Shown one piece after another: positions 30,478 through 43,480 of a stretch of 64,000 nucleotides of DNA. The position numbers were made by a program, and so were the translations under genes. Under the pieces are notes generated by a model that was given only the letters and a program-made list of their open reading frames with translations, did no database searches and was not told the DNA's origin. Numbering within the stretch: position 1 is the stretch's first letter; every line of letters begins with the position of its first letter. This DNA comes from Lachnospiraceae bacterium (GTDB lineage Bacteria; Bacillota; Clostridia; Lachnospirales; Lachnospiraceae), in assembly GCA_910574865.1 (NCBI GenBank), contig CAJTDN010000005.1, positions 248,001-312,000 on the forward strand. The letters run 5' to 3'.

Positions 30478-32538
30478 TCATATCTTCATCGCGGTCTCGT
30501 ACGCGCCCCAGATGACGCTTCTCAAATTTCCAATCTGGCGGCAGTCGCCCACCAGGTACACGTTCTTTTTCTTCTCGTCCACCTTAATCGGATTTGAGAT
30601 ATATCCCGCCGAGGATATCACGCTGTCACACTCGACGGTGACTTCCTTGCCGTTCTTGTCCGTACAGACGACGGCACCTTCCTTGACTTCCTTCAACGTC
30701 GTCTCCAAATATACCGAAACTTTATGTAGCGTGAACCACTCGCGCAGGTACGAGCTGTTCGCCAGACACACGCCCTTCTGGGAAACCAGGTCGTCCTTCA
30801 TCTCGATGATAATCGGGTCTTTCCCGAGCAATGCCAGCTCATAGGCAATCTCGCTTCCGGTCAGGCCGCCACCAATCACGGCCACCTTTTGTCCGACTTC
30901 CTTGCCGTTCAAGTACTCGCACGCCTCTATCATCCGCTCGTGGCCGGGAACGCTGCGCAGGATGCGCGGCACCGAACCCGTCGCGATGACGATTGGCTCC
31001 TCGCCGAAACGCGCCAGGTCGTTCACTTCCTCGTTCAGGTGTATCTCAATCTGGTGCTTATCCATCTGCCGCCGATACCACTCAAGAAGCTCGCGCAACT
31101 TGCCCTTGTAGGACTCGGCACTGGCCGGGATGAACGTCCCGCCCAGCACGTCGCCCTTCTCGTATATGACTGGCTTGTGGCCGCGCAGCTTCAACACGCG
31201 CGCCGCCTCCATGCCGCCGATGCCGCCGCCGATAACATGCACCCGCTTCGGGGTTGCCGCATGCTTGATTTTGTGCTTGTTCCACTGCATCGTCTCCGCG
31301 TTGACCGCGCAACGCGCCAGATGCAGGCTATCGCCCAGATCCTGATCGTTAGGAACGCCCTTGTAATGGCACATGTTGAAGCAGCCATTATGGCACAAGA
31401 TACACGGACGGATGTCCTCCTCACGCCCTTCCATCAGCTTGGTCACCCACTGCTGGTCAGCGAGGAACGGCCTCGCGAAACCGGCGCCGTCGAGCTTCCC
31501 TTCCTTGATGGAATCCGCCGCCGTGCCCGGATCCAAACGGCCCGCGCAAACCACCGGAATGTCCACGAACTTCTTAATGTGCTCCACGTCGGCCAGGTTA
31601 CAGTTCTCCGGCATGTATACCGGCGGATGCGCCCAGTACCATGCGTCATACGTTCCGTTGTCACAGTTGAGCATGTCATAGCCCGCGTCCTGCAAATATT
31701 TCGCCGCGCGCTCGGATTCTTCCATGTCGCGGCCGACTTCCGTGTAGTCCTCACCCGGAAGCGCGCCCTGGCGGAAGCCTTTTGTCTTCGAAATCACGCT
31801 GTAGCGCAAGGAAACCGGGAAATCGTCCCCACACTCCCACTTGATGGCCTTGACAATTTCCGTCGCAAACCGATAACGGTTTTCAAACGAGCCGCCATAT
31901 TGGTCGGAACGGTGGTTGACATATTTCAACGTGAACTGGTCAAGCAAATATCCCTCATGCACCGCGTGCACTTCCACGCCATCCACTCCCGCGTCCTTCA
32001 ACATCTTGGCGCTCTTCGCGAAAGCCTCCACGAACTCGTGGATCTCGTCCACCGTCATCTCACGGGAAGGCACCTTGTCCGACCAGCGGTTGGGGGACGG
32101 GCTGGCGGAGGCGGTAATTTTGTCCAGGTCCATGAACGGTTTGGAAAGCACCCGCAGGGCCGGATTCGTATACAACGTCTCCATCAGCTCGCTAATCGTG
32201 AATGAACGCCCGAAGCCCGCGGTAAGCTGGACGAAAAGCTTCGCCCCCGTCTTGTGGAACTGTGGCATCCATTTCTTCAAATCCTGGTACATCTTCTGAT
32301 TCTTGTGCAGCCACTGTCCAAACATCGGATTGTACACCGGCTGGCAGCCTGGTAATACTAACCCTGCGTTATTCTTCGCCACCTCCATGATAAAGCGGGC
32401 TCCCGCTTTGTCAAAATGATTCTTCTCCATCCATCCGAACAAGTCCGTGCCACCCATCGACGTAAGCACGATACGGTTCTTAATCTCGCAGTTCCCAATC
32501 TTCCACGGGGTAAACAACGGTTCCAGTCTTGCATCCAT
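30478..32538 (-). CDS. NADH:flavin oxidoreductase / 2,4-dienoyl-CoA reductase-like Fe-S flavoprotein
   Basis: 686 aa. An FMN TIM barrel covers residues ~1-375 (KNRIVLTSMGG, GVDGVEVHAVHEGYLLDQF, NHRSDQYGGSFENRYRF). A 4Fe-4S site lies in CILCHNGCFNMC plus a later Cys. FAD and NAD(P)H-binding folds follow with GGGIGGMEAARV and GGGLTGSEIAYE. This is the layout of DCR/trimethylamine dehydrogenase and BaiCD-type enene reductases of gut clostridia. The substrate cannot be read; an unsaturated acid or acyl-CoA is likely. It is divergent from the nickel/2-hydroxyacyl-CoA-dehydratase-like operon. The ATG has AAAAGGAGATG upstream. Confidence 0.85.
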   Translation of the reverse strand: MDARLEPLFTPWKIGNCEIKNRIVLTSMGGTDLFGWMEKNHFDKAGARFIMEVAKNNAGLVLPGCQPVYNPMFGQWLHKNQKMYQDLKKWMPQFHKTGAKLFVQLTAGFGRSFTISELMETLYTNPALRVLSKPFMDLDKITASASPSPNRWSDKVPSREMTVDEIHEFVEAFAKSAKMLKDAGVDGVEVHAVHEGYLLDQFTLKYVNHRSDQYGGSFENRYRFATEIVKAIKWECGDDFPVSLRYSVISKTKGFRQGALPGEDYTEVGRDMEESERAAKYLQDAGYDMLNCDNGTYDAWYWAHPPVYMPENCNLADVEHIKKFVDIPVVCAGRLDPGTAADSIKEGKLDGAGFARPFLADQQWVTKLMEGREEDIRPCILCHNGCFNMCHYKGVPNDQDLGDSLHLARCAVNAETMQWNKHKIKHAATPKRVHVIGGGIGGMEAARVLKLRGHKPVIYEKGDVLGGTFIPASAESYKGKLRELLEWYRRQMDKHQIEIHLNEEVNDLARFGEEPIVIATGSVPRILRSVPGHERMIEACEYLNGKEVGQKVAVIGGGLTGSEIAYELALLGKDPIIIEMKDDLVSQKGVCLANSSYLREWFTLHKVSVYLETTLKEVKEGAVVCTDKNGKEVTVECDSVISSAGYISNPIKVDEKKKNVYLVGDCRQIGNLRSVIWGAYETAMKI

Positions 32539-33023: not shown

Positions 33024-33785
33024 TTGCGCGAAACAACAATCATTGCTGCCGCCGGCAAAGGTGGTGTCGGCAAAACGTCCATCTGTGCGGCCATTGTCCG
33101 TTTGTTGTGCCAACACCGCCCGGATGCCAGAATCCTGGCCATTGACGCGGATCCTGCAGTGGGACTGGCCGCCGGTCTGGGCGTGGAAGCGGACTCCACG
33201 TTGGACGACATCCGCAAGCGCATCGTGGCCAGCGTGGAACAAGGCGAGCCAAAAGAAGCCATCGAACTTTTGGGGGAGGCACGATTTCAGATTTTCGACA
33301 CCATGGTCGAGAAGGAAGGATTTTCCTTCCTGGCCATAGGCAGGCCCGAGAGCGCTGGATGCTACTGCAAGGTAAATGCTTATTTAAAGGAAGTCATTTC
33401 CTTGCTGGCACAAGATTTTGACTATGTGGTGATTGACGGTGAGGCAGGAATTGAACAAATCAACCGCCGGGTGATGGAACAGGTAACGCACCTGATCCTG
33501 GTCACCGATCCCAGCCGAAAGGGGGTACAGGTAGTCAAGACGATTCAAAAAGTGGCGCAGGAACTTGTCATGTACAAGCAGTGCGGGGCCATCGTCAACC
33601 GGGTAAACGACCCGTCCATGCTCGAACTGGTGGATCTCGCCCCGGTTGAAGTGCTGGCGAGCATTTCTGCCGACCCGCTTCATGCCGCCAACGAAGTGCG
33701 GGGCTTAAGCATATTCGAGCTCGACGATGACGCGGCCTTGCTTGAAGGGGTAAGCGAAGCCATGAAAAAATGGAAAATTTTATAA
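33024..33785 (+). CDS. CooC-like nickel-inserting ATPase (SIMIBI/MinD class)
   Basis: 253 aa. Deviant Walker A GKGGVGKT at residues 11-18, Asp-rich switch LAIDADPAVGLAAGLG, and a CxC motif at residues 113/115 (AGCYCKVN). CooC proteins of CO dehydrogenases use this CxC to bind Ni2+ at the dimer interface while ATP drives insertion. There is no CO dehydrogenase in the window, so the client is probably in this operon. TTG start at 33024 with GGAGG 8 nt upstream. First of a six-gene rightward operon: HgdB-like, HgdB-like, activase, TM peptide, ACS-like. Confidence 0.85.
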   Translation: MRETTIIAAAGKGGVGKTSICAAIVRLLCQHRPDARILAIDADPAVGLAAGLGVEADSTLDDIRKRIVASVEQGEPKEAIELLGEARFQIFDTMVEKEGFSFLAIGRPESAGCYCKVNAYLKEVISLLAQDFDYVVIDGEAGIEQINRRVMEQVTHLILVTDPSRKGVQVVKTIQKVAQELVMYKQCGAIVNRVNDPSMLELVDLAPVEVLASISADPLHAANEVRGLSIFELDDDAALLEGVSEAMKKWKIL

Positions 33786-33813
33786 AAAATAAAACCGAAA
33801 AGAGGTGTGACAC

Positions 33814-35016
33814 TTGAAAGACCTGAAGCATTTGATTTATTTTGAAGGCCTGCTGGAAAACGCGAACAATCCTTTGATTGAGCAGGCCAGGTCGGAGGGA
33901 AAGCTTGCCGTCGGCTATACCTGTTTCCACATGCCCGAGGTGCTTTTAAACCTTGACAATTGCTTTTCCGTCCGCTTACGGGCGCCAAACATGGGTTCCA
34001 TGGATATTGCTACATATTATATGTCCAACTATACTTGTGAGTTTTGCCGCGCGTTATTGGAGCGTTCCTTTGAAGGAGGTTTCAACTTCCTTGACGCCCT
34101 GGCGGGCGTGGACGCTTGTGCGGAGATGAACCGCTGCATGGAGAACATCGAGCTGCAAAACCTGATTCCCAACGAAAAGTTTTTCGTCACGCATGCAGAC
34201 ATCCCTTACAAGGTGGAGGACTTTACGATTGCCCACTACGTAAGGCAGATTAAGAACCGCGTGTTAAACCGCTTGAGCGAAGTTTACGGCGTGGACATTT
34301 CCGACGGGGCCATTCGCAAGGCGGTAAAGGAGCACAACGAGGTATGCCGGATTATCACGGAGATTGGAAATCTGCGTAAGCAGTCGAATCCCCCCATCAC
34401 CGGTTACGAATTCCACGTGCTCAACATGGTTACTTATTGCTGTCCCAAATACTTGATTCTCGACAAGTTAAAAGAAACCCTTACGGAAATCAAAAAGCGC
34501 AAGCCCGACTCGAAACCTTGGTATCGTGCCCGCGTCGCCCTGGTCGGCAGTGAGGTGGACGACTTGGGATTCACAAAGTTGATTGAGGATTCCGGCGCGT
34601 TCATCGTTGCGGACCGCTTCTGCTTTGGTTCCACCCCTGGACGCGAGGAAATCATCTTGAACGACGAGGAGGACGCGCTCATGCAGGTGTGCCGCCACTA
34701 TCTGGAAGTATCCGAGTGCCCGCGCTTCATGAGCAACGAAAAAATCAGCCAGCGCCGCGAGACGGCGGATCGGCTGGCGCGCGAATACGGCGCGGAAGGC
34801 ATTATTTTTGAACAAATCAAGTTCTGCGACTTCTGGGCTTTCGAAAGAGCCCTGGCCAGCCACGTGCAAGAGGTAGAATACGGTCATCCGGTGCTGTCCA
34901 TTGACCGTCCGTACAACGCCCGCTCTTCGGGACAGCTTCGCACCCGGATGCAGGCTTTCGTGGAGTCGCTGGAAATTAAACGTATCCAAAAGGGAGGAGG
35001 TAGCCCGCAATGCTGA
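33814..35016 (+). CDS. 2-hydroxyacyl-CoA dehydratase (HgdB/DCCP) superfamily protein, smaller subunit
   Basis: 400 aa. Family cysteines: GYTCFHMPEVLL near residue 38, NYTCEFCRALLE with GVDACAEMNRC, and IFEQIKFCDFWAFE near the C-terminus. These ligate a 4Fe-4S or double-cubane cluster in HgdB, BcrB/C and DCCP proteins. These proteins are reduced by an ATP-hydrolysing activase to very low potential. TTG start, weak site. It overlaps the next gene by 7 nt. The substrate is unknown: none of the usual acyl-CoA transferase or fermentation partners are present, and the nickel-related neighbours are unusual for this family. Confidence 0.82.
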   Translation: MKDLKHLIYFEGLLENANNPLIEQARSEGKLAVGYTCFHMPEVLLNLDNCFSVRLRAPNMGSMDIATYYMSNYTCEFCRALLERSFEGGFNFLDALAGVDACAEMNRCMENIELQNLIPNEKFFVTHADIPYKVEDFTIAHYVRQIKNRVLNRLSEVYGVDISDGAIRKAVKEHNEVCRIITEIGNLRKQSNPPITGYEFHVLNMVTYCCPKYLILDKLKETLTEIKKRKPDSKPWYRARVALVGSEVDDLGFTKLIEDSGAFIVADRFCFGSTPGREEIILNDEEDALMQVCRHYLEVSECPRFMSNEKISQRRETADRLAREYGAEGIIFEQIKFCDFWAFERALASHVQEVEYGHPVLSIDRPYNARSSGQLRTRMQAFVESLEIKRIQKGGGSPQC

Positions 35017-36749
35017 AAAACAATTTAAAATGGGCGAAGAAAAACATCCCCCAAGACTTGAAAATCTGGAAAGAACTGATTTCGGAAGTGGACTGGAAGG
35101 ACGTGGGGAAAAAGCTCAAGAAGGACTTCGAGGCCACGAAGGAACGGATTACGGACGAGGTAAAGGCCGTGGCCGCCATGTCCGTTTCCGAACGTGTTGA
35201 CTTGTTGGTAAACGGCGAAAAGCATCTGGGACGCTTGTACCAGACCGGGAAAATCGCCTTCACCAGGCGCGAATGGAAGGGCGTGGAAGGCACCGCCCGC
35301 GACTTCGTCGGCTGGCTGAAAATATGGGGCACGATGTCCGCCATGGTCATGAAAGATCCCATTTCCATCGCCGAGGGTCTGTTCGAATACCGATGGTTCA
35401 GTTCCTATTTGGCCCTTCCCGCCTTTGCCGACCGTAACAACCTCGGTCTGCGAGGCCCGCACGTGACCATGGCCAACGAACTGTTCCTGCCCATGTTCCG
35501 CTATGGGGCAGACGCGATTGCCACGTTGCTTAGGGCAGACGAAAGATTGGGAAACGACCCCAAAATCAGAGAAAAATTATTACTTTTTGACGAGATGACA
35601 ATGAGCCAGATGATGGCCGGCTTCCCGAACCTGGAAGGCATGCCCTATCAATTGATGCCGGTCTTCATGGTATCGGAAATTGACCAGTTGATTTGCATTC
35701 CTTATATTGACGCCGTGGAAAGCTTCGGGCTTCCTTCGGACACTTGCCCGGTACCCACCTCCGAATGTGGCGCCGCCATCATGGACGCGCTTCCGCACTG
35801 TGGCCTGGGATTCATTTCCACGTCCACCCCGTGTGACGGATCCGACATGGCGACCTCCTATCAGGACCGCCGCTTCAAGATGCCGACGTACCCGCTGACG
35901 CTGCCGGTTCGTTACGACGACGAGGACACGGTGGACTGCGGCGCCGAAGACATGAAGCGGTGCATCAAGTGGGTGGAAGACCTGACCGGTGAAAAATGGG
36001 ATTGGGACCACTATTTTGAAGTCATTCGCCGTTTCAACGAACAGACCAACTACGAGATGCATAAGTGGGAAATCAACAAGACGCCTTACCCGCAAGTCAT
36101 CGGGTCGGCTTACGAACTGTTCCGCAAATGGAGCTACGAGATGGACGGCGGCTTGTATCCCGGCACGCACAAGACATTCAAAAAGATTGACAAGATGATG
36201 GACCGCGCTTACGAAAAACGCATGCAGCCTTATCGCGCGCCGATTCGCCATCGCGCCATCGTATGGAGCTGCCCGGCACATTATTACGCCAACTTCTCCA
36301 ACTGGCTGCAAAACTGCTGGGGCATCGGCGTATTGGTTGAGATGGAGAGCCTGAACTTCACCAAGATGCTCAACACCGACGACAAGGAAGAGGCCATCCG
36401 CGACCTGGCCAGGCTGTACGAGCGCATGGTCATGCGCAAGCACACCAATGGCGGCCATGTCCACGTGCTGGAAGAATTGTGGAAGCAAGTGGAAGAGTTT
36501 AACGTGGAAATCGTAATCATGTACCAGCACGTATGTTGCAAGACCATGAGCGGCCTGCAGGGGCTGTTTGACGAGCAGGCACGTGAACGCGGCATCCACC
36601 TCATCTGGGTGGAGCACGACCTGATGGATCCACGTACGGTATCCCGCCGTGACATGCGCAGCAAGATTAACAACTATATGGTAAACGTATTCCAGGAAGA
36701 GCCGCTCGACCCGTCTCTGGTAGAATTTGAAGACGACGTGACCTGGTAA
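35010..36749 (+). CDS. 2-hydroxyacyl-CoA dehydratase superfamily protein, larger subunit
   Basis: 579 aa, about 150-180 residues longer than typical HgdA/B. The extra part is an N-terminal charged helical stretch (DWKDVGKKLKKDFEATKERI). Cys-rich positions are FGLPSDTCPVPTSECGA, LPHCGLGF, STPCDGSD, VWSCPAHYY and MYQHVCCKTMSG. Probably the partner of the preceding protein in a heterodimer reduced by the activase. The 7-nt overlap with the upstream gene indicates coupled translation and 1:1 stoichiometry. GGAGG lies within the end of that gene. Function unassigned. Confidence 0.8.
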   Translation: MLKNNLKWAKKNIPQDLKIWKELISEVDWKDVGKKLKKDFEATKERITDEVKAVAAMSVSERVDLLVNGEKHLGRLYQTGKIAFTRREWKGVEGTARDFVGWLKIWGTMSAMVMKDPISIAEGLFEYRWFSSYLALPAFADRNNLGLRGPHVTMANELFLPMFRYGADAIATLLRADERLGNDPKIREKLLLFDEMTMSQMMAGFPNLEGMPYQLMPVFMVSEIDQLICIPYIDAVESFGLPSDTCPVPTSECGAAIMDALPHCGLGFISTSTPCDGSDMATSYQDRRFKMPTYPLTLPVRYDDEDTVDCGAEDMKRCIKWVEDLTGEKWDWDHYFEVIRRFNEQTNYEMHKWEINKTPYPQVIGSAYELFRKWSYEMDGGLYPGTHKTFKKIDKMMDRAYEKRMQPYRAPIRHRAIVWSCPAHYYANFSNWLQNCWGIGVLVEMESLNFTKMLNTDDKEEAIRDLARLYERMVMRKHTNGGHVHVLEELWKQVEEFNVEIVIMYQHVCCKTMSGLQGLFDEQARERGIHLIWVEHDLMDPRTVSRRDMRSKINNYMVNVFQEEPLDPSLVEFEDDVTW

Positions 36750-36770
36750 AATAAGAAAGGAGAAAACGCT

Positions 36771-37568
36771 ATGAAATATTTTGGAGGATGTGACGTAGGT
36801 TCCACTTATACCAAGGCCGTCATCGTGGACGAAAACGGGAAAATAATGGCCCACACCACGATTCGCAGCAAGATTAATTCTGAAGTTTCCGCCCAGATTG
36901 CCATGGAAGAAGTCATATCGCAGATTCCGGAGCTTGACAACGCGCAGAATCTGGCGTATCTCATCGGTACCGGTTACGGCCGCAACAAAGTTCCTTTTGC
37001 CGATGAAAACATTTCCGAGATTTCCTGCCACGCGATGGGCGTGCACGTGACCGACCCGACGGTAAAGGCCATCATCGACATTGGCGGCCAGGACGTAAAA
37101 GGTATCAGCATCGACACGGACGGCACGGTGAAGAACTTCGCCATGAACGACAAGTGCGCCGCCGGAACCGGGCGTTTCTTCGAGGCGATGGCCAGGAGTT
37201 TCGAGATGTCCCTGACGGATTTCTCAAACCTGTCCCTGACCGCGAAGAACGTGATTCCGATTACCGCGCAATGTACGGTATTCGCCGAGAGCGAGGTCAT
37301 CACTTTGGTCGGCGAGGGCAAGCCGATGGACGAGATTGCCGCCGGCATCCAGATGGCCGTTGCGAAACGGTGCTTCGTCATGGCGAAAAAGGCCGGGGCG
37401 ACCACGGCCATTACCCTGACCGGCGGTTGTGCCAAGAACGCGGGCCTGAAAAACGCCATCGAACATGTATTGAAGCTGAAGGTCATTGACCTGCCTATCG
37501 ATCCTCAATTGATGGGGGCTCTTGGCGCGGCGGAATATGCCAGGCAGAAAGGGCAGGCCAAATCATAA
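36771..37568 (+). CDS. Acyl-CoA dehydratase activase (HgdC-type ATP-dependent reductase)
   Basis: 265 aa ASKHA-fold ATPase. Phosphate loop GCDVGSTYTKAVIVD, second motif IDIGGQDVKGIS, adenosine motif TGGCAKNAGL. The two Cys that bridge a 4Fe-4S between dimer halves are C129 (NDKCAAGTGRF) and C168 (TAQCTVFAESEV), at almost the HgdC positions. It uses ATP to shoot one electron into an HgdB-type partner. Here the partners are the two proteins encoded just upstream. Confidence 0.92.
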   Translation: MKYFGGCDVGSTYTKAVIVDENGKIMAHTTIRSKINSEVSAQIAMEEVISQIPELDNAQNLAYLIGTGYGRNKVPFADENISEISCHAMGVHVTDPTVKAIIDIGGQDVKGISIDTDGTVKNFAMNDKCAAGTGRFFEAMARSFEMSLTDFSNLSLTAKNVIPITAQCTVFAESEVITLVGEGKPMDEIAAGIQMAVAKRCFVMAKKAGATTAITLTGGCAKNAGLKNAIEHVLKLKVIDLPIDPQLMGALGAAEYARQKGQAKS

Positions 37569-37589
37569 AGCCGGGAAAAGGAGTTTGCC

Positions 37590-37754
37590 ATGAAAAAACT
37601 GCTAAAATTATTGATTAAGATTTCTTGTATCACGTTAGGGATACTATTTACGATTTACATGCTGAATCTGGATATGAAGGTCGTGGGCTTCATTTACACC
37701 TGGCTCAACAAGTTCCATGACAAGAAAGATTCACTGAGGGACATCCAGTTCTAG
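37590..37754 (+). CDS. 54-aa single-pass membrane peptide
   Basis: MKKLLKLLIKISCITLGILF begins one TM helix to about residue 25, followed by NLDMKVVGFIYTWLNKFHDK and a charged tail. It has its own GGAG site (AAAAGGAG 5 nt before the ATG). Its TAG stop overlaps the next gene's GTG as TAGTG. No family recognised. Its position inside the operon suggests it anchors or assembles the complex at the membrane. Confidence 0.7.
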   Translation: MKKLLKLLIKISCITLGILFTIYMLNLDMKVVGFIYTWLNKFHDKKDSLRDIQF

Positions 37755-38479
37755 TGAAGCTGTTTGACTCCGTCATTACCGCCACGCAAACGCAGCTGGG
37801 TTCCTTCGCGCCCCAGGTCTGGGACTATGAGGAACAAGGAGCCTGGCCGGACGCTGGCGCGAGCGAGCTGGTATTGCAGCGGGACGCGGCCTACGAGCTG
37901 GGAGGCGGCGGACATCCCGCGGTAAATTTCACCTGCGTGACAACAAACGAGGACTTGGTCGGGCAAAACCAAGTGGTCTTGTATGGTTCGGACTTGGGGC
38001 GTCTGAAAAAAGACGCCCCTTACGCCAGAATCGCCCTCCTGCAGACAACCCCTTTGGAAGGCGACGACGAGGCGGCCTACCGGGCCATCCGGGACATGGA
38101 GTACGTGAAATACCACGTGTTTCCCAAGGGATACATGTTCCGCATTTCTTCCGGGGACTTTCGTGAACAAGTGAGGGTAAGCAGGTCCGCCTTGCGCAAG
38201 GGGATTTCCTTCCGAAGCGTGGGCTTCGACTTCATCCGTCAATATTTGAAGAATCCGAACGTCCTGCGGGTAAAGCTGATTTTCGTCACGGAACCGGACG
38301 CCCCGTACAAGATGTTCCAGGACAGCGCGAAAAAGGCGAACGATATCACCAAGACGCTGACGCACATACTGGACGGGATGGCCACCGACTGCCGTTCCTG
38401 CAACCTGAAGCCCATCTGTGACGAGGTGGAAGGGATGCGCGAGCTGCATTTTAAGCAGGCGAAAGAAGACAAAAAGTAG
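37754..38479 (+). CDS. Short protein resembling the central domain of acetyl-CoA synthase (AcsB/CdhC)
   Basis: 241 aa, GTG start coupled to the upstream stop. Residues ~45-190 follow the pattern of the ACS beta-subunit middle domain (LGGGGHPAVNFTCVTTNEDL; VVLYGSDLGRL; then FRISSGDF, VSRSALRKGISFRSVGFDFI and VLRVKLIFVTE). The C-terminus has C213-x2-C216-x5-C222 (DCRSCNLKPICDE), reminiscent of the first A-cluster cysteines of ACS, but the rest of the A-cluster domain is missing. It may bind nickel and/or iron-sulfur. Similarity is by eye and remote. The CooC- and CooT-like neighbours support a nickel link. Confidence 0.6.
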   Translation: MKLFDSVITATQTQLGSFAPQVWDYEEQGAWPDAGASELVLQRDAAYELGGGGHPAVNFTCVTTNEDLVGQNQVVLYGSDLGRLKKDAPYARIALLQTTPLEGDDEAAYRAIRDMEYVKYHVFPKGYMFRISSGDFREQVRVSRSALRKGISFRSVGFDFIRQYLKNPNVLRVKLIFVTEPDAPYKMFQDSAKKANDITKTLTHILDGMATDCRSCNLKPICDEVEGMRELHFKQAKEDKK

Positions 38480-38521
38480 CACCGCAAACTACATGATTTT
38501 TTTCTTTTCATAGTTTCTATT

Positions 38522-38566
38522 CCGCAAGGAAGGTCGCAGCCCTCTTGGCTACGACCTTCCTTGCGG
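38522..38566. terminator. Bidirectional terminator between the convergent operons
   Basis: A ~20-bp stem CCGCAAGGAAGGTCGCAGCC / GGCTACGACCTTCCTTGCGG with a 5-nt loop. Its right arm also encodes the last residues of the CooT-like gene. Confidence 0.8.
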
Positions 38567-38749
38567 TTCTACCAATATCTTGTTTTCCATCAAATCCATG
38601 CTACGGAGACGCCCCTCGTACTCCGTACGAATCCCCATGATGTCGATGAACGTCAGCTTGCCTTGTTCAATCGAGACATTTGCCACGTTACGGCACAAGA
38701 GGTCTTCCTCCCCTTGCGGCCGCCGCACGTAAACGGCAGAAAGGCACAT
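38549..38749 (-). CDS. CooT-like nickel-binding protein
   Basis: 66 aa. It begins MCLSAVYV with the conserved Cys2 that binds Ni2+ in CooT, followed by the small SH3-like barrel (VANVSIEQGKLTFIDIMGIR, MENKILVE). CooT is a nickel chaperone for CO dehydrogenase; homologues occur also without it. It starts 4 nt after the His-rich gene ends, so the two form an operon facing the cooC-like operon. Its stop codon is inside the terminator hairpin. Confidence 0.8.
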   Translation of the reverse strand: MCLSAVYVRRPQGEEDLLCRNVANVSIEQGKLTFIDIMGIRTEYEGRLRSMDLMENKILVEPQGRS

Positions 38750-38753
38750 GTCC

Positions 38754-39044
38754 TCACTCTCCTTTCAATTCTGATACCACCCGCGCGATTTTTTCATTGC
38801 CCCGCGTGAAATCCTCCACCGCGGCACGAAGCAGTTCCGCCTCTTCCCGCCGAAGGCTCGCCGCCAGGCCATTTAATTCCTCGGCATGGTGCCTGTTATG
38901 TCCCAGCATGTATTCCAACATGGCCAACACTTCCTCGGAAGAAGCCGCCTGCTTGTTTGGGCTTCCATGGGAATGTCCATGCTCATGTTGGTGGTCATGC
39001 CCGTGACCATGTTCTTGTAAATGTTCTTGTTCATGTAAATGCAT
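38754..39044 (-). CDS. His-rich putative nickel-binding protein
   Basis: 96 aa. Eleven His in the first 26 residues (MHLHEQEHLQEHGHGHDHQH and on to HSHG), then a helical domain of about 60 residues (EEVLAMLEYMLGHNRHHAEE ... VEDFTRGNEKIARVV). The His tract is like CooJ or HypB tails that store Ni2+. No GTPase domain is present, so it is not HypB. Start at 39044 follows AAAGGAGG. Followed at 4 nt by the CooT-like gene. Confidence 0.75.
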   Translation of the reverse strand: MHLHEQEHLQEHGHGHDHQHEHGHSHGSPNKQAASSEEVLAMLEYMLGHNRHHAEELNGLAASLRREEAELLRAAVEDFTRGNEKIARVVSELKGE

Positions 39045-39362
39045 ACTCACATCCTCCTTTGCCCGCCGTGCCAACGCGTTGTTGGCTTCCTAACAGCAGG
39101 TCTTCAAATTCAATCAAATACTTTAGCGTTTTCTTTCCCCCTTTCTTGCAATCCCGCAAATCTTATGCCATGCCGGGCTGCCGACCATTTTCGAACAAAA
39201 ATATTATCACTTAAATTATACATGTTTTACAAAAAAAGTCGAGTATTATGAGAAAATTCATGTACTTTTTTTAAGTTAGCGTCGGTGTACAGAGCGCTTG
39301 TTTAATGATACTTCCCTTATCGTCCTAACGGTTAACCAATCACGCCAGGATGCCGCTCATCC

Positions 39363-40190
39363 TCATAAAACCGCGCCCTCCCGCCTATATTCACTCGGCA
39401 GCATCCCGTATTTCTTACGGAACGCCTTGGCAAAGGCCCTGCCATTTGGAAAGCCGTTATCTAAGGCAATTTCCCCAATTGGATGTTCCGTGTTCATCAA
39501 TTCCTTCGACGCATACTCCAGCCGCACGTCCTGCAAGTATGACTTGTAATTAATCCCGGCATATTTCTGGAACATCCGCGACAAATAAGCCGGGGCATAG
39601 CCAAATATTTCCGAAAGAGTTTCCAATGACAGTTCCTCCGTATAATGCTCCTTGATATAAGTCGTGATGGAAGACAACTTTGAAAGTTTTTTGTTTCTTT
39701 TGACCATCTCATCGTTTACTTCCAGCTCGCGGTATATCGTGACCATCATGTATAAAAGCATAAAATACTGGCTTTTTACTTTCATCTCATATCCGCACCG
39801 CTTTTCCATGTAAGACGCGAACATCTCCCCAATCAGCTTCGCCGCCTCCTTGTCATGCTCCTTGGAATGGTGCGCGAAGCGAACGAATTGCTCCCCGGTA
39901 AAATAATCCTCGAACGTCTTTAGCGGAATCTGCAGCACAATCGTCCGATTCGGCACTGGTGAATGAATCGAATGGATTTCATTGGAATTCACGATGATAA
40001 TATCGCCCTCGCGCAACGGGTGTTCCACCTCGTTGATAAAGAACTGCAAACCACCCTCAAGCACCGCGAAAATCTCAATGGAACGGTGCCAGTGCTTGTC
40101 ACGGTAATAATTGCCGTCACCACCCTCGAACAAAAACATCTTGAACGGCAAATCGTCGTTTGGCATCACCAATTCATGGGGAAACTGCAT
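39363..40190 (-). CDS. AraC-family regulator (second of a tandem pair)
   Basis: 275 aa from ATG 40190 (AGGGAGGGAG upstream); a start 11 codons earlier is possible but lies within a poorer site. N-terminal cupin (DKHWHRSIEIFAVLEGGLQF, LREGDIIIVNSNEIHSIHSP) and C-terminal double HTH (LSLETLSEIFGYAPAYLSRM; IGEIALDNGFPNGRAFAKAF; LPSEYRR). It lies 25 bp after another AraC gene, so both are in one transcript, divergent from GH31. Probably responds to a sugar derived from alpha-glucosides. Confidence 0.85.
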   Translation of the reverse strand: MQFPHELVMPNDDLPFKMFLFEGGDGNYYRDKHWHRSIEIFAVLEGGLQFFINEVEHPLREGDIIIVNSNEIHSIHSPVPNRTIVLQIPLKTFEDYFTGEQFVRFAHHSKEHDKEAAKLIGEMFASYMEKRCGYEMKVKSQYFMLLYMMVTIYRELEVNDEMVKRNKKLSKLSSITTYIKEHYTEELSLETLSEIFGYAPAYLSRMFQKYAGINYKSYLQDVRLEYASKELMNTEHPIGEIALDNGFPNGRAFAKAFRKKYGMLPSEYRREGAVL

Positions 40191-40215
40191 GATTTCTCCC
40201 TCCCTTTCTTTATTC

Positions 40216-41214
40216 TTATTCATGGCCTACGATCTGGTCTTCCCCATCCACGCACCGCCGTCCGGCTGGTTCCTTCGGTTCGTGCTCCTGGCATCGTCCG
40301 ACCTCCCTTTCCTCGCGCGCCCTGCTTTTGCCCCTATACTCCCGTGGCGTCACCCCTTCCTCTTTCTTGAACTGGCGGATAAAGTAACTGACATTGTCAA
40401 AACCGCAGTCCAGGCTGATTTCCAACACCGGCTTCGTCGTGTCGCGAAGCATTTCCTTCGCCCGCTCCAGCCGGTGCGAAATCAGATACTGTATCGGCGG
40501 GACTCCCGCGATTTCCTTAAAAAAATGGCACAAATACTGCGGGTTGCATTGCACCTGCCCCGCCATGTCGTCCAACGTCACCTTTTCCGCAAAATGCTCC
40601 TGCACGTATGTGACGATTCGCTTGTAACGGTCAATTTTCTCCTTCTCCGCCGCGCTGAGCACGCTTTCGGTAGAAAGGATTTTATTTCTTTTTTTTAATA
40701 AAAATAACAATCGGTAAAGATTCAGTTTCGTCTCCAGATAATCGACATCGTCAGGGTAATACTGAAAACGGCAAAGTTGCTCGAAAACATCCTTTATTTC
40801 CCCATAGCCATCCTCCCCCACCCGTACCATGTGCGGCAACGACTCCATTCCCGCCAAAATCGGTCCCGTCAGCTTGTCCTCTATCACGTCATGGTAGGCA
40901 AATTTCAAAATATATGGGTTAAAGATCACCGCGTCGTGCACCGTCCCCCGATGGCATCCTTCCAGCCTGTGCAGCTCCCCGCTGTTGACAAAGCAAAAGT
41001 CGCCCTCCCGTAAGATCATGTTTTCCAGGTTCAGTTCCATTCGGAACGTCCCCTTGCGAATATGCAGCAATTCCACCTCGTGGTGCCAGTGCCGTTCCAC
41101 AAAAAAACCATCGGCGTACTGCGGCGTGTGCTCCGGAGAAAAGTGCAGCCTCACCAGCGGCTTTTCCACCGTCCCATGCCACGCGTCCTCCTCTAAAGAA
41201 TGTTCCTTGTTCAT
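40216..41214 (-). CDS. AraC-family regulator (first of a tandem pair)
   Basis: 332 aa. Cupin region RHWHHEVELLHIRKGTFRME with LREGDFCFVNSGELHRLEG. HTH helices VTLDDMAGQVQCNPQYLCHF and ISLDCGFDNVSYFIRQFKKE, then TPREYRGK. The C-terminal ~35 residues after TPREYRGK are charged and atypical (GRCQEHEPKEPAGRR), possibly a read-through extension. ATG 41214 has AGGGAGGG upstream. Divergent from the GH31 gene 311 bp away, with a large palindrome between. Confidence 0.85.
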   Translation of the reverse strand: MNKEHSLEEDAWHGTVEKPLVRLHFSPEHTPQYADGFFVERHWHHEVELLHIRKGTFRMELNLENMILREGDFCFVNSGELHRLEGCHRGTVHDAVIFNPYILKFAYHDVIEDKLTGPILAGMESLPHMVRVGEDGYGEIKDVFEQLCRFQYYPDDVDYLETKLNLYRLLFLLKKRNKILSTESVLSAAEKEKIDRYKRIVTYVQEHFAEKVTLDDMAGQVQCNPQYLCHFFKEIAGVPPIQYLISHRLERAKEMLRDTTKPVLEISLDCGFDNVSYFIRQFKKEEGVTPREYRGKSRAREEREVGRCQEHEPKEPAGRRCVDGEDQIVGHE

Positions 41215-41336
41215 AGAGCCCTCCCTACGCTTTTCACGCGGCGACCCTTCGCAAGCTGCAAAACCATGCGCCATAGGCGCATGCCGCCCTTTGCAAGGGC
41301 TTTCGTTTCTCGCTTTCAGGCGGTCGCCCCTTTCAA

Positions 41337-41401
41337 GTTCGTAGATACGAAGCCTGTCGTTTTGCAAGCAAGCTTGCAACGCCGGTTTCATATCTACGAA
41401 C
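41337..41401. repeat. 65-bp palindrome upstream of GH31 / AraC
   Basis: GTTCGTAGATACGAA at the left pairs with TTTCATATCTACGAAC at the right, with inner TTGCAAGC/GCTTGCAA. Similar architecture (inner GCAAGCTT, outer complementary arms) occurs at 48224-48273. Confidence 0.55.
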
Positions 41402-41524
41402 CGTGAAAATCTGTCTTTTTCGCAAGATTGTGTTATTATTGTATGAAATAATGCAAGATATTTCAATCCTTTTATGTAAAAATAGTATAAAAATACGAAA
41501 TGTGAATCCAAGGAGGTTTTTATC

Positions 41525-43480
41525 ATGATTACAAAGTACACTTATGGCAACCCATTCGACACCGAGGCCATCATGACGCCAATTCCGGCCACGGGGGGCA
41601 CGCCCGTGCACGGCAGCGTTTCCCTTGATGGAGGATTTACCTTTTCTTATACAATGGCCGCCCATGACGTCGTGTATGGGCTTGGCGAGGCGATACGCGG
41701 CATTAACAAGCGCGGGCACCGCTATGTCAGCAACTGCTCCGACGTGCCGGACCATGTCGAAGACTTGCCATCCTTGTACGGTGCGCACAACTTTTTAATT
41801 GTCGACGGCAGGGAGACCTTCGGCTTGTTCTTTGATTATCCGGCGGCGATAACCTTTGACGTCGGCCACTCGCTACAAGACGAATTGACCGTTTCCTGCG
41901 AGGAGGCCGACCTCGACCTCTACGTCATTGAGGGGGAAAGTGCCTACGATATCGTAAGACAGTTCCGCAAAATCATCGGCCGTAGCTATATCCCGCCGAA
42001 ATTCGCTTTTGGCTTCGGCCAGAGCCGCTGGGGCTACACGACCGCCGAGGATTTCAAAAACGTCGTGAAACAATACCGCGAAAACCACATTCCTATGGAT
42101 TTACTTTACATGGACATTGATTACATGGAGGGCTACAAGGACTTTACCGTCAACGAGAAGAACTTCCCGGATTTCAAGGCGTTTGTCGAGGAGATGAAGG
42201 CTCAGGATATCCACCTCGTTCCCATTATCGACGCGGGCGTCAAAATCGAGGAAGGCTACGATGTCTACGAGGAAGGCGTGAAAAATAATTATTTTTGCAA
42301 ACGCGAGGACGGCAGTGATTTCGCGGCGGCGGTGTGGCCGGGGCGCACCCATTTTCCGGACATGCTGAACAAGGATGCCCGCGAATGGTTTGGCAGCAAA
42401 TATGAAATCCTGGTTTCACAAGGCATCGACGCGTTCTGGAACGACATGAACGAGCCCGCCATTTTCTATAGCGATGAGGGATTGGCCGAATACAAGGAAT
42501 TCTTACAAAAATACATGGATGACAAGGACGGCCAGATTCCGTTTTTCGCCGTCCAATACCTGCCAAAAATGTTGTCCAACAGCCCGAAGGATTACGAGCG
42601 GTTTTACCACAACGTGAACGGGAAAATGGTCCGCCATGACAAGGTGCACAACCTTTTTGGCTACAACATGACCCGCGCGGCGGGCGAGGCGTTTGAAAAG
42701 ATTAGCCCCGACAAGCGGATTCTCATGTTTTCCCGCTCCTCCTACATCGGAATGCACCGCTACGGCGGCATTTGGACGGGCGACAACAAGTCCTGGTGGT
42801 CGCACCTTTTGATGAACCTGAAAATGATGCCGTCGCTCAACATGTGCGGGTTCCTTTACTCGGGTGCCGACTTGGGCGGCTTCGGGGCCGACACGACCCG
42901 CGACCTTTTGCTCCGCTGGCTGGCACTCGGCATCTTTACCCCGCTGATGCGCAACCATGCGGCAATAAGGACGCGCGAACAAGAATTCTATCAATTTGAA
43001 AACGTGGAAGACTTCCGCCACGTGGTCGGCGTGCGCTACCGCCTAATTCCGTACCTTTACAGCGAATTCATGAAAGCCGCCTTAAATGACGACATGTATT
43101 TCAAGCCGTTGGCGTTCGACTATCCGGGGGACGAGATGGCCCGCGAGGTTGAAGACCAGTTGATGCTGGGCAATGAAATCATGATCGCGCCGGTATACAC
43201 GCAGAATGCGTCCGGACGCTACGTCTACCTGCCGGAGGAAATGAAATTCGTCAAGTTCATGCCGGACGGAAGCATTTATGAGGAAACATTGCCACAAGGG
43301 TCGCATTATGTAAAAATTGCCTTGAACGAAGTTTCCATGTTCATTCGCAAGGGCAAATGCGTGCCAGTCGTGGACGTGGCGGAGTCCGTGGACAAAATCG
43401 ACATGGACACGCTCAAATATATCGGCTACGAAGGTGCAACGTACGACTTGTACGAGGATGACGGCATCAGCCGGATTTGA
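41525..43480 (+). CDS. Glycoside hydrolase family 31 alpha-glucosidase
   Basis: 651 aa, cytoplasmic. The GH31 nucleophile lies in FWNDMNEPAIFY and the acid/base in WTGDNKSWWSHL. The N-terminal part (MITKYTYGNPFDTEAI, VYGLGEAIRGINKRG) and many blocks (YMDIDYMEGYKDFTVNEKNF, GAHNFLIVDG) are very close to the well-studied B. obeum enzyme, which prefers alpha-1,6 glucosides. The C-terminus stops at YEDDGISRI, about a dozen residues short of that relative. The gene is flanked by AraC regulators and AAGGAGG precedes its ATG. Likely role: hydrolysis of imported isomaltose-type or related oligosaccharides. Confidence 0.9.
   Translation: MITKYTYGNPFDTEAIMTPIPATGGTPVHGSVSLDGGFTFSYTMAAHDVVYGLGEAIRGINKRGHRYVSNCSDVPDHVEDLPSLYGAHNFLIVDGRETFGLFFDYPAAITFDVGHSLQDELTVSCEEADLDLYVIEGESAYDIVRQFRKIIGRSYIPPKFAFGFGQSRWGYTTAEDFKNVVKQYRENHIPMDLLYMDIDYMEGYKDFTVNEKNFPDFKAFVEEMKAQDIHLVPIIDAGVKIEEGYDVYEEGVKNNYFCKREDGSDFAAAVWPGRTHFPDMLNKDAREWFGSKYEILVSQGIDAFWNDMNEPAIFYSDEGLAEYKEFLQKYMDDKDGQIPFFAVQYLPKMLSNSPKDYERFYHNVNGKMVRHDKVHNLFGYNMTRAAGEAFEKISPDKRILMFSRSSYIGMHRYGGIWTGDNKSWWSHLLMNLKMMPSLNMCGFLYSGADLGGFGADTTRDLLLRWLALGIFTPLMRNHAAIRTREQEFYQFENVEDFRHVVGVRYRLIPYLYSEFMKAALNDDMYFKPLAFDYPGDEMAREVEDQLMLGNEIMIAPVYTQNASGRYVYLPEEMKFVKFMPDGSIYEETLPQGSHYVKIALNEVSMFIRKGKCVPVVDVAESVDKIDMDTLKYIGYEGATYDLYEDDGISRI

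Follow-up and report, generated by a model that had tools for sequence, protein, structure and literature searches.

A gene run in a Lachnospiraceae bacterium raises the question of what an ATP-driven reductase would do in the company of proteins resembling those of the CO dehydrogenase (CODH)/acetyl-CoA synthase (ACS) system. The run occupies positions 33,024 to 39,044 of a 64,000-nucleotide stretch of DNA, hereafter the window (assembly GCA_910574865.1, contig CAJTDN010000005.1, positions 248,001 to 312,000 of the forward strand). The original prediction saw in it an undescribed enzyme, and this is supported here, with reduction of an inert substrate at a site holding nickel and Fe-S as the putative activity. 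The present analysis favors, with somewhat better than even confidence, the view that these genes form a new branch of the ATP-driven radical reductases, alongside class I benzoyl-CoA reductase, 2-hydroxyacyl-CoA dehydratase, and the double-cubane protein, with its own nickel-insertion machinery. This reading draws directly on gene identity, conserved ligand sets, folds, gene order, and occurrence of the run without CODH/ACS. Locus counts given below refer to the best 80 of 128 loci in which the ACS-like gene was confirmed by a scan of GTDB genome contigs. A search of open-licence PubMed Central, a scope which leaves out preprints and most subscription papers, found no literature on this gene set.

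The predicted reductase subunits and their activase

Six genes follow each other on the plus strand with spacings of 28, −7, 21, 21, and −1 bp. They encode a CooC-like ATPase, two subunits of the HgdB type, an activase, a small transmembrane (TM) peptide, and an ACS-like protein, and the gene-by-gene description given in the original prediction was borne out. Both large subunits match PF06050 (HGD-D, cut-off 28.4 bits), HgdB1 (33814..35016, plus strand, 400 amino acids) with 290.8 bits and HgdB2 (35010..36749, plus strand, 579 amino acids) with 132.7 bits. HgdB1 is a double-cubane-type subunit with six Cys ligands, C37/75/102/270/302/338, which are conserved in 75 of 75 family rows. The pattern aligns with that of the double-cubane cluster protein (DCCP) and with C36/73/100/263/293/327 of BzdN, which are described in the available part of the source as the ligands of the [8Fe-9S] double cubane (PMC11971306). 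HgdB1 is predicted from this ligand set to carry such a cluster. Its partner HgdB2 retains three of the six Cys in 79 of 79 rows, giving one three-Cys cluster site, and has an additional N-terminal helical region.

The activase (36771..37568, plus strand, 265 amino acids) is of the ATP-dependent HgdC/BcrAD type and scores 210.1 bits against TIGR00241 (cut-off 125.4). Its C129 and C168, which we take to be the bridging Cys pair, are conserved in 59 of 59 rows, confirming the two-Cys activase claimed earlier. With every double-cubane ligand conserved in HgdB1, the proposed link to low-potential reduction has gained strength, and the locus very likely encodes an ATP-driven low-potential reductase, as judged from its sequence.

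Compared to the class I benzoyl-CoA reductase BzdNO (8s02), a heterodimer, the set has a similar division into a six-Cys, [8Fe-9S]-type subunit and a three-Cys subunit served by an ATP-hydrolysing activase; HgdB1 resembles BzdN in its Cys and HgdB2 resembles BzdO in its fold. However, there are several differences. First, the score falls far below the cut-off of the bzd model. Second, HgdB2 has no His just after C275, near the position of His131 in BzdO. Third, the N-terminal helical region of HgdB2, the TM peptide, and the CooC-like and ACS-like proteins are additions. With DCCP and DCCP-R (6eno, 7yyl) the CDG motif is shared; HgdB1 finds there its best NCBIfam model (NF040772), and the same group is the closest solved sequence to HgdB2 (E = 3.2e-11). 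DCCP is a homodimer with a double cubane in each monomer, as stated in the available part of the source (PMC11971306), whereas HgdB2 has only three of the six Cys.

The HgdB pair and the activase form the classical set of a conventional radical 2-hydroxyacyl-CoA dehydratase, or of an arene reductase, as used in the fermentation of amino acids or aromatic compounds, and the fold of HgdB2 is equally near BzdO and a dehydratase alpha subunit. An enzyme of that ordinary kind, in which the CooC-like and ACS-like proteins would be Fe-S or coenzyme A (CoA) helpers and no nickel would be involved, is nevertheless unlikely, as HgdB1 falls far under the cut-offs for named enzymes. It stays below every NCBIfam equivalog threshold, with 129 of 350 bits for the double-cubane model, 92 of 454 for bzdN, 73 of 700 for HadC, and 64 of 421 for another model. 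HgdB2 reaches at most 45.6 bits against models of named enzymes, also below cut-off. The nickel-associated genes, considered next, are a further argument against an ordinary dehydratase.

Nickel-associated genes and the ACS-like protein

The first gene of the run (33024..33785, plus strand) encodes a P-loop ATPase of 253 amino acids with a deviant Walker A motif, KGGVGK, and a CxC motif at residues 113/115. Its nearest solved relative is CooC (3kje, E = 2.1e-20), with CYC aligned. Both motifs are invariant in 45 rows of CooC-like proteins, and CxC is found in 53 of 53 rows of the CooC family. This gene is the host genome's only CooC-like match above 25 bits.

Facing the six-gene run on the minus strand, and convergent with it, are a CooT-like gene (38549..38749, 66 amino acids; PF10133, 62.8 bits, cut-off 27) with Cys at position 2 and a gene for a His-rich, CooJ-like protein (38754..39074, or starting at ATG 39044; 106 amino acids, 14 of them His), as had been described. 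Cys2 is present in all ten CooT copies listed, and wherever one of the two genes was found (9 of 80 loci), so was the other. The His-rich protein matches no relevant library model above cut-off and has its His stretch at the N-terminal side, compared to the C-terminal His-rich part described for CooJ in the available text of PMC6006190. The same text counts 111 CooT homologues and 85 CooT-containing proteomes with CODH (PMC6006190). Of the nine CooT-bearing loci found here, eight come from genomes that gave no CooS above cut-off. Among 98 relatives, five genomes share CooT and the ACS-like gene (hypergeometric p = 0.0036), three of these five being congeners.

HypA and HypB, described below with their neighbours, are further nickel-associated partners that recur with the module. 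As several such families recur in the gene run, nickel maturation is likely, and the nickel link of the original prediction is stronger than when it was made. Insertion of the metal would fall to the CooC-like ATPase. The invariant CxC and the recurrence of CooT, the His-rich protein, HypA, and HypB in the same runs are difficult to fit to a dehydratase without nickel. The idea that CooT/His-rich and HypA/HypB are mutually exclusive nickel donors was set aside: the first pair is in 9 and the second in 16 of the 80 loci, with none shared, yet this gives only p = 0.12.

The last gene of the plus-strand run encodes the ACS-like protein (37754..38479, 241 amino acids). By itself this protein scores 17.3 bits against a Pfam cut-off of 24, and its identity was confirmed through its family; fold and homology are those of the ACS middle domain. 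It ends in a CxxCx5C tail (residues 213/216/222), a motif seen in 78 of 78 rows. The A-cluster set of ACS, CxxC-x8-C-x9-C plus CGC, is complete in the full ACS of locus L096, used as a reference; in the ACS-like protein nothing follows CxxCx5C, and the dinickel CGC motif is missing. Between the activase and ACS-like genes is an open frame for the 54-residue membrane peptide with a single hydrophobic stretch (37590..37754, plus strand), whose family is present in 70 of 80 loci with the consensus FtVYFFNLDMKL.

Conservation of the run and its separation from CODH

Synteny was counted on the 48 of the 80 loci whose sequence extends 6 kb or more in the upstream direction from the ACS-like gene. 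In these, the gene is accompanied by CooC in 44 loci, HgdB1 in 41, HgdB2 in 42 (a fragment in L043), the activase in 42, and the TM peptide in 44; the complete set of five partners is present in 39. The exact order CooC-HgdB1-HgdB2-activase-TM-ACS-like (counting genes within 7 kb) is kept in 35 of the 80 loci. In three loci (L059, L061, and L069) the eight genes all point the same way, in the order His-rich-HgdB1-HgdB2-activase-TM-CooT-CooC-ACS-like; the identity of CooT in the first two was checked against Pfam. The set expected to co-occur is thus conserved among relatives. The CooC and ACS-like genes remain adjacent even in rearranged loci (L016, L020, L021, L041, and L085), which points to the ACS-like protein as the one that CooC serves. 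HgdB1 was present somewhere in the genome in 12 of the 14 cases in which the ACS-like gene had no HgdB pair in the usual place or sat at a contig end. Unrelated contexts for the ACS-like and CooC-like genes, which would have spoken against the prediction, were thus not the outcome. In one genome (G005, L004/L043), an HgdB2 fragment adjoins a truncated ACS-like gene, which suggests a decayed module and its loss in a congener. Distance correlations between families, calculated from the best-scoring copy per locus and plus-strand copies only, were r = 0.95 for HgdB1-HgdB2 and 0.69 to 0.79 for other pairs; they carry little weight, as shared ancestry is still included.

The 80 loci come from Lachnospiraceae, Oscillospiraceae, and other Clostridia (many from gut or rumen), Clostridium gasigenes, and one Treponemataceae metagenome-assembled genome (MAG). 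Isolates with the module are Clostridium gasigenes DSM 12272, Pseudobutyrivibrio sp. YE44, and Eubacterium sp. 14-2. The ACS-like gene was found in 11 of 98 relatives searched, one copy being partial. An even draw of 398 genomes across the phylum gave matches to the ACS-like query in 50, among which frames shorter than 280 amino acids occurred only in the window's genome and one other (G289); the rest were of 416 to 784 amino acids, most of them ACS-sized. With short frames in two of 398 genomes, the ACS-like gene is sporadic.

The genomes that carry the module seldom show CODH. Among genomes with the ACS-like gene, CooS was above cut-off in 6 of 32 and 4 of 48, or 10 of 80 together; in the other 70 its absence is not absolute, since many are draft MAGs. 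Full ACS was present in 4 of 32 and found in none of the other 28. One genome (G102) has both systems, and its CODH/ACS run carries two CooC-type genes of its own. No CooS/CdhA is among the genes of the window's locus, nor is a full ACS, and CooS is on another contig, so that the claim of an enzyme with neither in view was upheld. The opposite outcome, a set always embedded in a plain CODH/ACS operon, did not occur. Compared to the CODH/ACS system, the locus shares the CooC-like protein with CxC, CooT with Cys2, the His-rich protein, and a relative of the ACS middle domain, but not CooS, full ACS, or the CGC motif.

The host genome has a single CooS, on contig C2, unlinked to the module. In that region (L100, 170000-187000), the lone gene is flanked by ferredoxin-like and FAD-oxidoreductase-like genes, as read from the sequence. 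No CooC was found beside it, and other CooC-like matches in the genome are below 25 bits; no match to the ACS C-domain or to CoFeSP was found in this genome. CooC, CooT, and the His-rich protein might accordingly belong to this lone CODH and lie beside an unrelated reductase by chance, the window's CooC being the only clear copy in the genome. The chance of this is very slight: CooC accompanies the ACS-like gene in 44 of 48 loci, yet only 10 of 80 genomes have CooS above cut-off, and the three eight-gene runs are in genomes that gave no CooS.

Another explanation would make the module a substitute for CODH/ACS, in which reduction of CO2 or CO falls to the double-cubane pair and the carbon is then passed to CoA by the ACS-like subunit. 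This would account for how some Lachnospiraceae can be acetogens without CODH/ACS; such an acetogen is on record, 'Ca. Galacturonibacter soehngenii', whose acetyl-CoA synthase was unidentified according to the available part of the source (PMC7000372). Homology to the ACS middle domain and the scarcity of CODH and full ACS in module genomes fit this proposal, but the dinickel motif is missing, and the multiplied HgdB pairs described below fit several substrates better than a single C1 reaction. Moreover, in 33 genomes searched for CoFeSP (PF03599), strong matches were confined to the four with full ACS; two marginal matches of about 27 bits, just above cut-off, fell in frames of 816 and 841 amino acids. 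As CoFeSP is strong only alongside full ACS, a C1 reaction by a non-canonical Wood-Ljungdahl route is highly improbable.

Neighbours, multiplied subunits, and a proposed mechanism

Divergent from the run is a gene for an old yellow enzyme (OYE)-type flavin/Fe-S oxidoreductase of 686 amino acids (30478..32538, minus strand), which scores 336 bits with the BaiCD model and 338 bits with that for bilirubin reductase, each under the NCBIfam cut-off. An OYE/BaiCD-like flavoenzyme is present in eight other loci, directly downstream of the ACS-like gene in L023, L030, and L039. Elsewhere an IsrA-like gene takes that place: 20 of 80 loci have one downstream of the ACS-like gene in the same orientation, including 18 of the 62 whose sequence runs on for 4 kb or more there; it was not visible in the other 60, some of which are cut. 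The query was the C. gasigenes copy (L045), to which the other 19 are 44-49% identical. HypA is found in 13 loci and HypB in 5, directly upstream of CooC in 4 of the latter. Locus L084 has the order HypB-CooC-HgdB1-HgdB2-activase-TM-ACS-like-IsrA-HypA. The OYE-type neighbour is possibly a pathway partner; it also resembles what are presumably the 2-enoate reductases that follow dehydratases in Stickland pathways, a point counted in favor of the ordinary dehydratase.

The comparison with IsrA, a putative isoprene reductase, has two sides. CooC, HgdB, activase, and ACS-like genes are all absent from the five-gene isr operon as described (PMC10134865), and the window has an OYE-type gene in place of the IsrA-like one. 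IsrA was proposed there to need nickel, as HypA/HypB accompany it (PMC10134865). The module could then be a machine for cofactor assembly or reactivation, with HgdB1/HgdB2, CooC, and the ACS-like protein building or activating a Ni-Fe-S site for, e.g., IsrA or the OYE-type protein. The downstream IsrA-like genes and that proposed nickel need speak for it, as do two runs in one direction, IsrA-HypA-HypB-HgdB1-HgdB2-TM (L156, 6336-13296) and IsrA-HypA-HgdB1-HgdB2-TM (L174, 4578-10678). This explanation is improbable, since most loci show no IsrA-like gene and relatives without the ACS-like gene (G003, G007, G008, and G035) have near full-length ones. Furthermore, genomes with up to nine HgdB pairs, and CooC beside one inspected pair in each, would be odd for a maturase. 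A co-occurrence test of IsrA and the module in relatives was uninformative, since 97 of the 98 gave a match to the query, in many cases by way of its flavin part.

The multiplied pairs were seen in three genomes where the ACS-like gene stands apart, with nine (G527), seven (G531), and six (G530) HgdB1 copies. Inspection of 21 of these 22 copies (20 regions, L156-L175) gave 17 HgdB1-HgdB2-TM cassettes, one with an intervening activase, one showing no TM peptide, and two cut by contig ends. CooC adjoins three of the 21, one per genome; if the helpers are single, one helper set would serve many pairs, which suggests different substrates. Neighbours of the copies, named by reading their sequences, include TetR- and GntR-like regulators and AlaX-like, pyridoxamine-kinase-like, NifS-like, and molybdenum-cofactor-like proteins, and in their diversity give no clue to substrate. 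In locus L012, a second HgdB1-HgdB2-TM set precedes the His-rich and CooT genes. In the window, 196 bp (39052..39247, minus strand) resemble L012 14562-14764, which covers the 5′ end of that HgdB1 gene and the sequence before it (69.9% identity over 209 aligned positions, E = 8e-20). The stretch is a probable remnant, and on this similarity the second set was probably lost from the window; its gain in L012 is possible instead.

A bidirectional, terminator-like hairpin (38521..38566) lies between the convergent runs, with a predicted RNA fold of −36.0 kcal/mol on one strand and −42.3 kcal/mol on the other. Two AraC-type regulator genes (39363-41541, minus strand) adjoin the CooT/His-rich pair, the first having relatives at the same position in L012 and L013; they are possible regulators of this run or of the glycosidase nearby. 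A Clostridiales-1 RNA (RF01699; 32824-32987, minus strand; 114.8 bits, gathering 48) occupies the gap upstream of the CooC-like gene, and another adjoins the OYE-type gene of L012 (2751-2906). An Rfam scan of the window and seven loci found Clostridiales-1 RNAs and tRNAs but no nickel riboswitch at gathering score.

Several observations weigh against a double-cubane reductase with its own nickel insertion. First, the ACS-like protein has the three tail Cys without the remaining A-cluster motif and so may bind just an Fe-S cluster, or nothing, and the tail is modelled at low confidence (predicted local distance difference test, pLDDT, below 50 at residues 206-218). Second, the ACS-like gene is solitary in L017 and L022, with about 10 kb visible on both sides and a CooC-HgdB1-HgdB2 run elsewhere in each genome (L157, L164); at least one partner is missing in 9 of the 48 loci, and HgdB1 was not found in 2 of the 14 genomes searched for it. 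Third, the window's nickel genes could in part serve the host CooS, as that gene has no CooC beside it. Fourth, HypA/HypB may serve IsrA, with which they are independently associated in the available part of the isr paper (PMC10134865), and not the module. IsrA-like genes also stand apart from it, three near full-length ones (48-52% identity) lying distant from the module in the host genome (contigs C14, C18, and C28).

Under the favored nickel-inserting branch, we infer complex formation, nickel binding, an electron route, CoA binding, membrane anchoring, and a substrate class as follows. Electrons from ferredoxin or an NAD(P)H flavoprotein would reach the activase, whose ATP hydrolysis would drive them onto the [8Fe-9S] double cubane of HgdB1 and from there through the open-site cluster of HgdB2 to the substrate, with the small TM peptide holding the assembly at the membrane. 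The CooC-like ATPase would insert nickel, most likely into the three-Cys tail of the ACS-like subunit, much as CooC/AcsF do for CODH/ACS, and would be supplied by CooT and the His-rich protein here and by HypA/HypB in other species. From its homology to the ACS middle domain, the ACS-like subunit would also be expected to have CoA or a thioester as a ligand. The product would probably be an alkene or dienoyl compound, reduced further by an ene-reductase-type flavoenzyme, OYE/BaiCD-like here and IsrA-like elsewhere; this guess of an unsaturated product comes from the association of both families with C=C reduction. A bolder version, offered tentatively and at less than even confidence, is that the module represents a nickel enzyme of a class not known before, in which an ATP-driven reductase of the double-cubane kind carries, on a truncated ACS-like subunit, a Ni-Fe-S site that CooC loads; some Clostridia would have diversified it to as many as nine pairs, presumably for different substrates.

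To our knowledge, nickel enzymes make up a short list, and few physiological substrates are known for ATP-driven double-cubane proteins. A gene run that joins nickel handling to a double-cubane reductase in gut and rumen bacteria, mostly without detectable CODH, points to chemistry that would be overlooked under family labels like 'dehydratase', 'CODH accessory', or 'ACS beta subunit'. The isolates that bear the module make the question directly testable, and the module suggests a role for the CooT and CooC genes of genomes that have no CODH.

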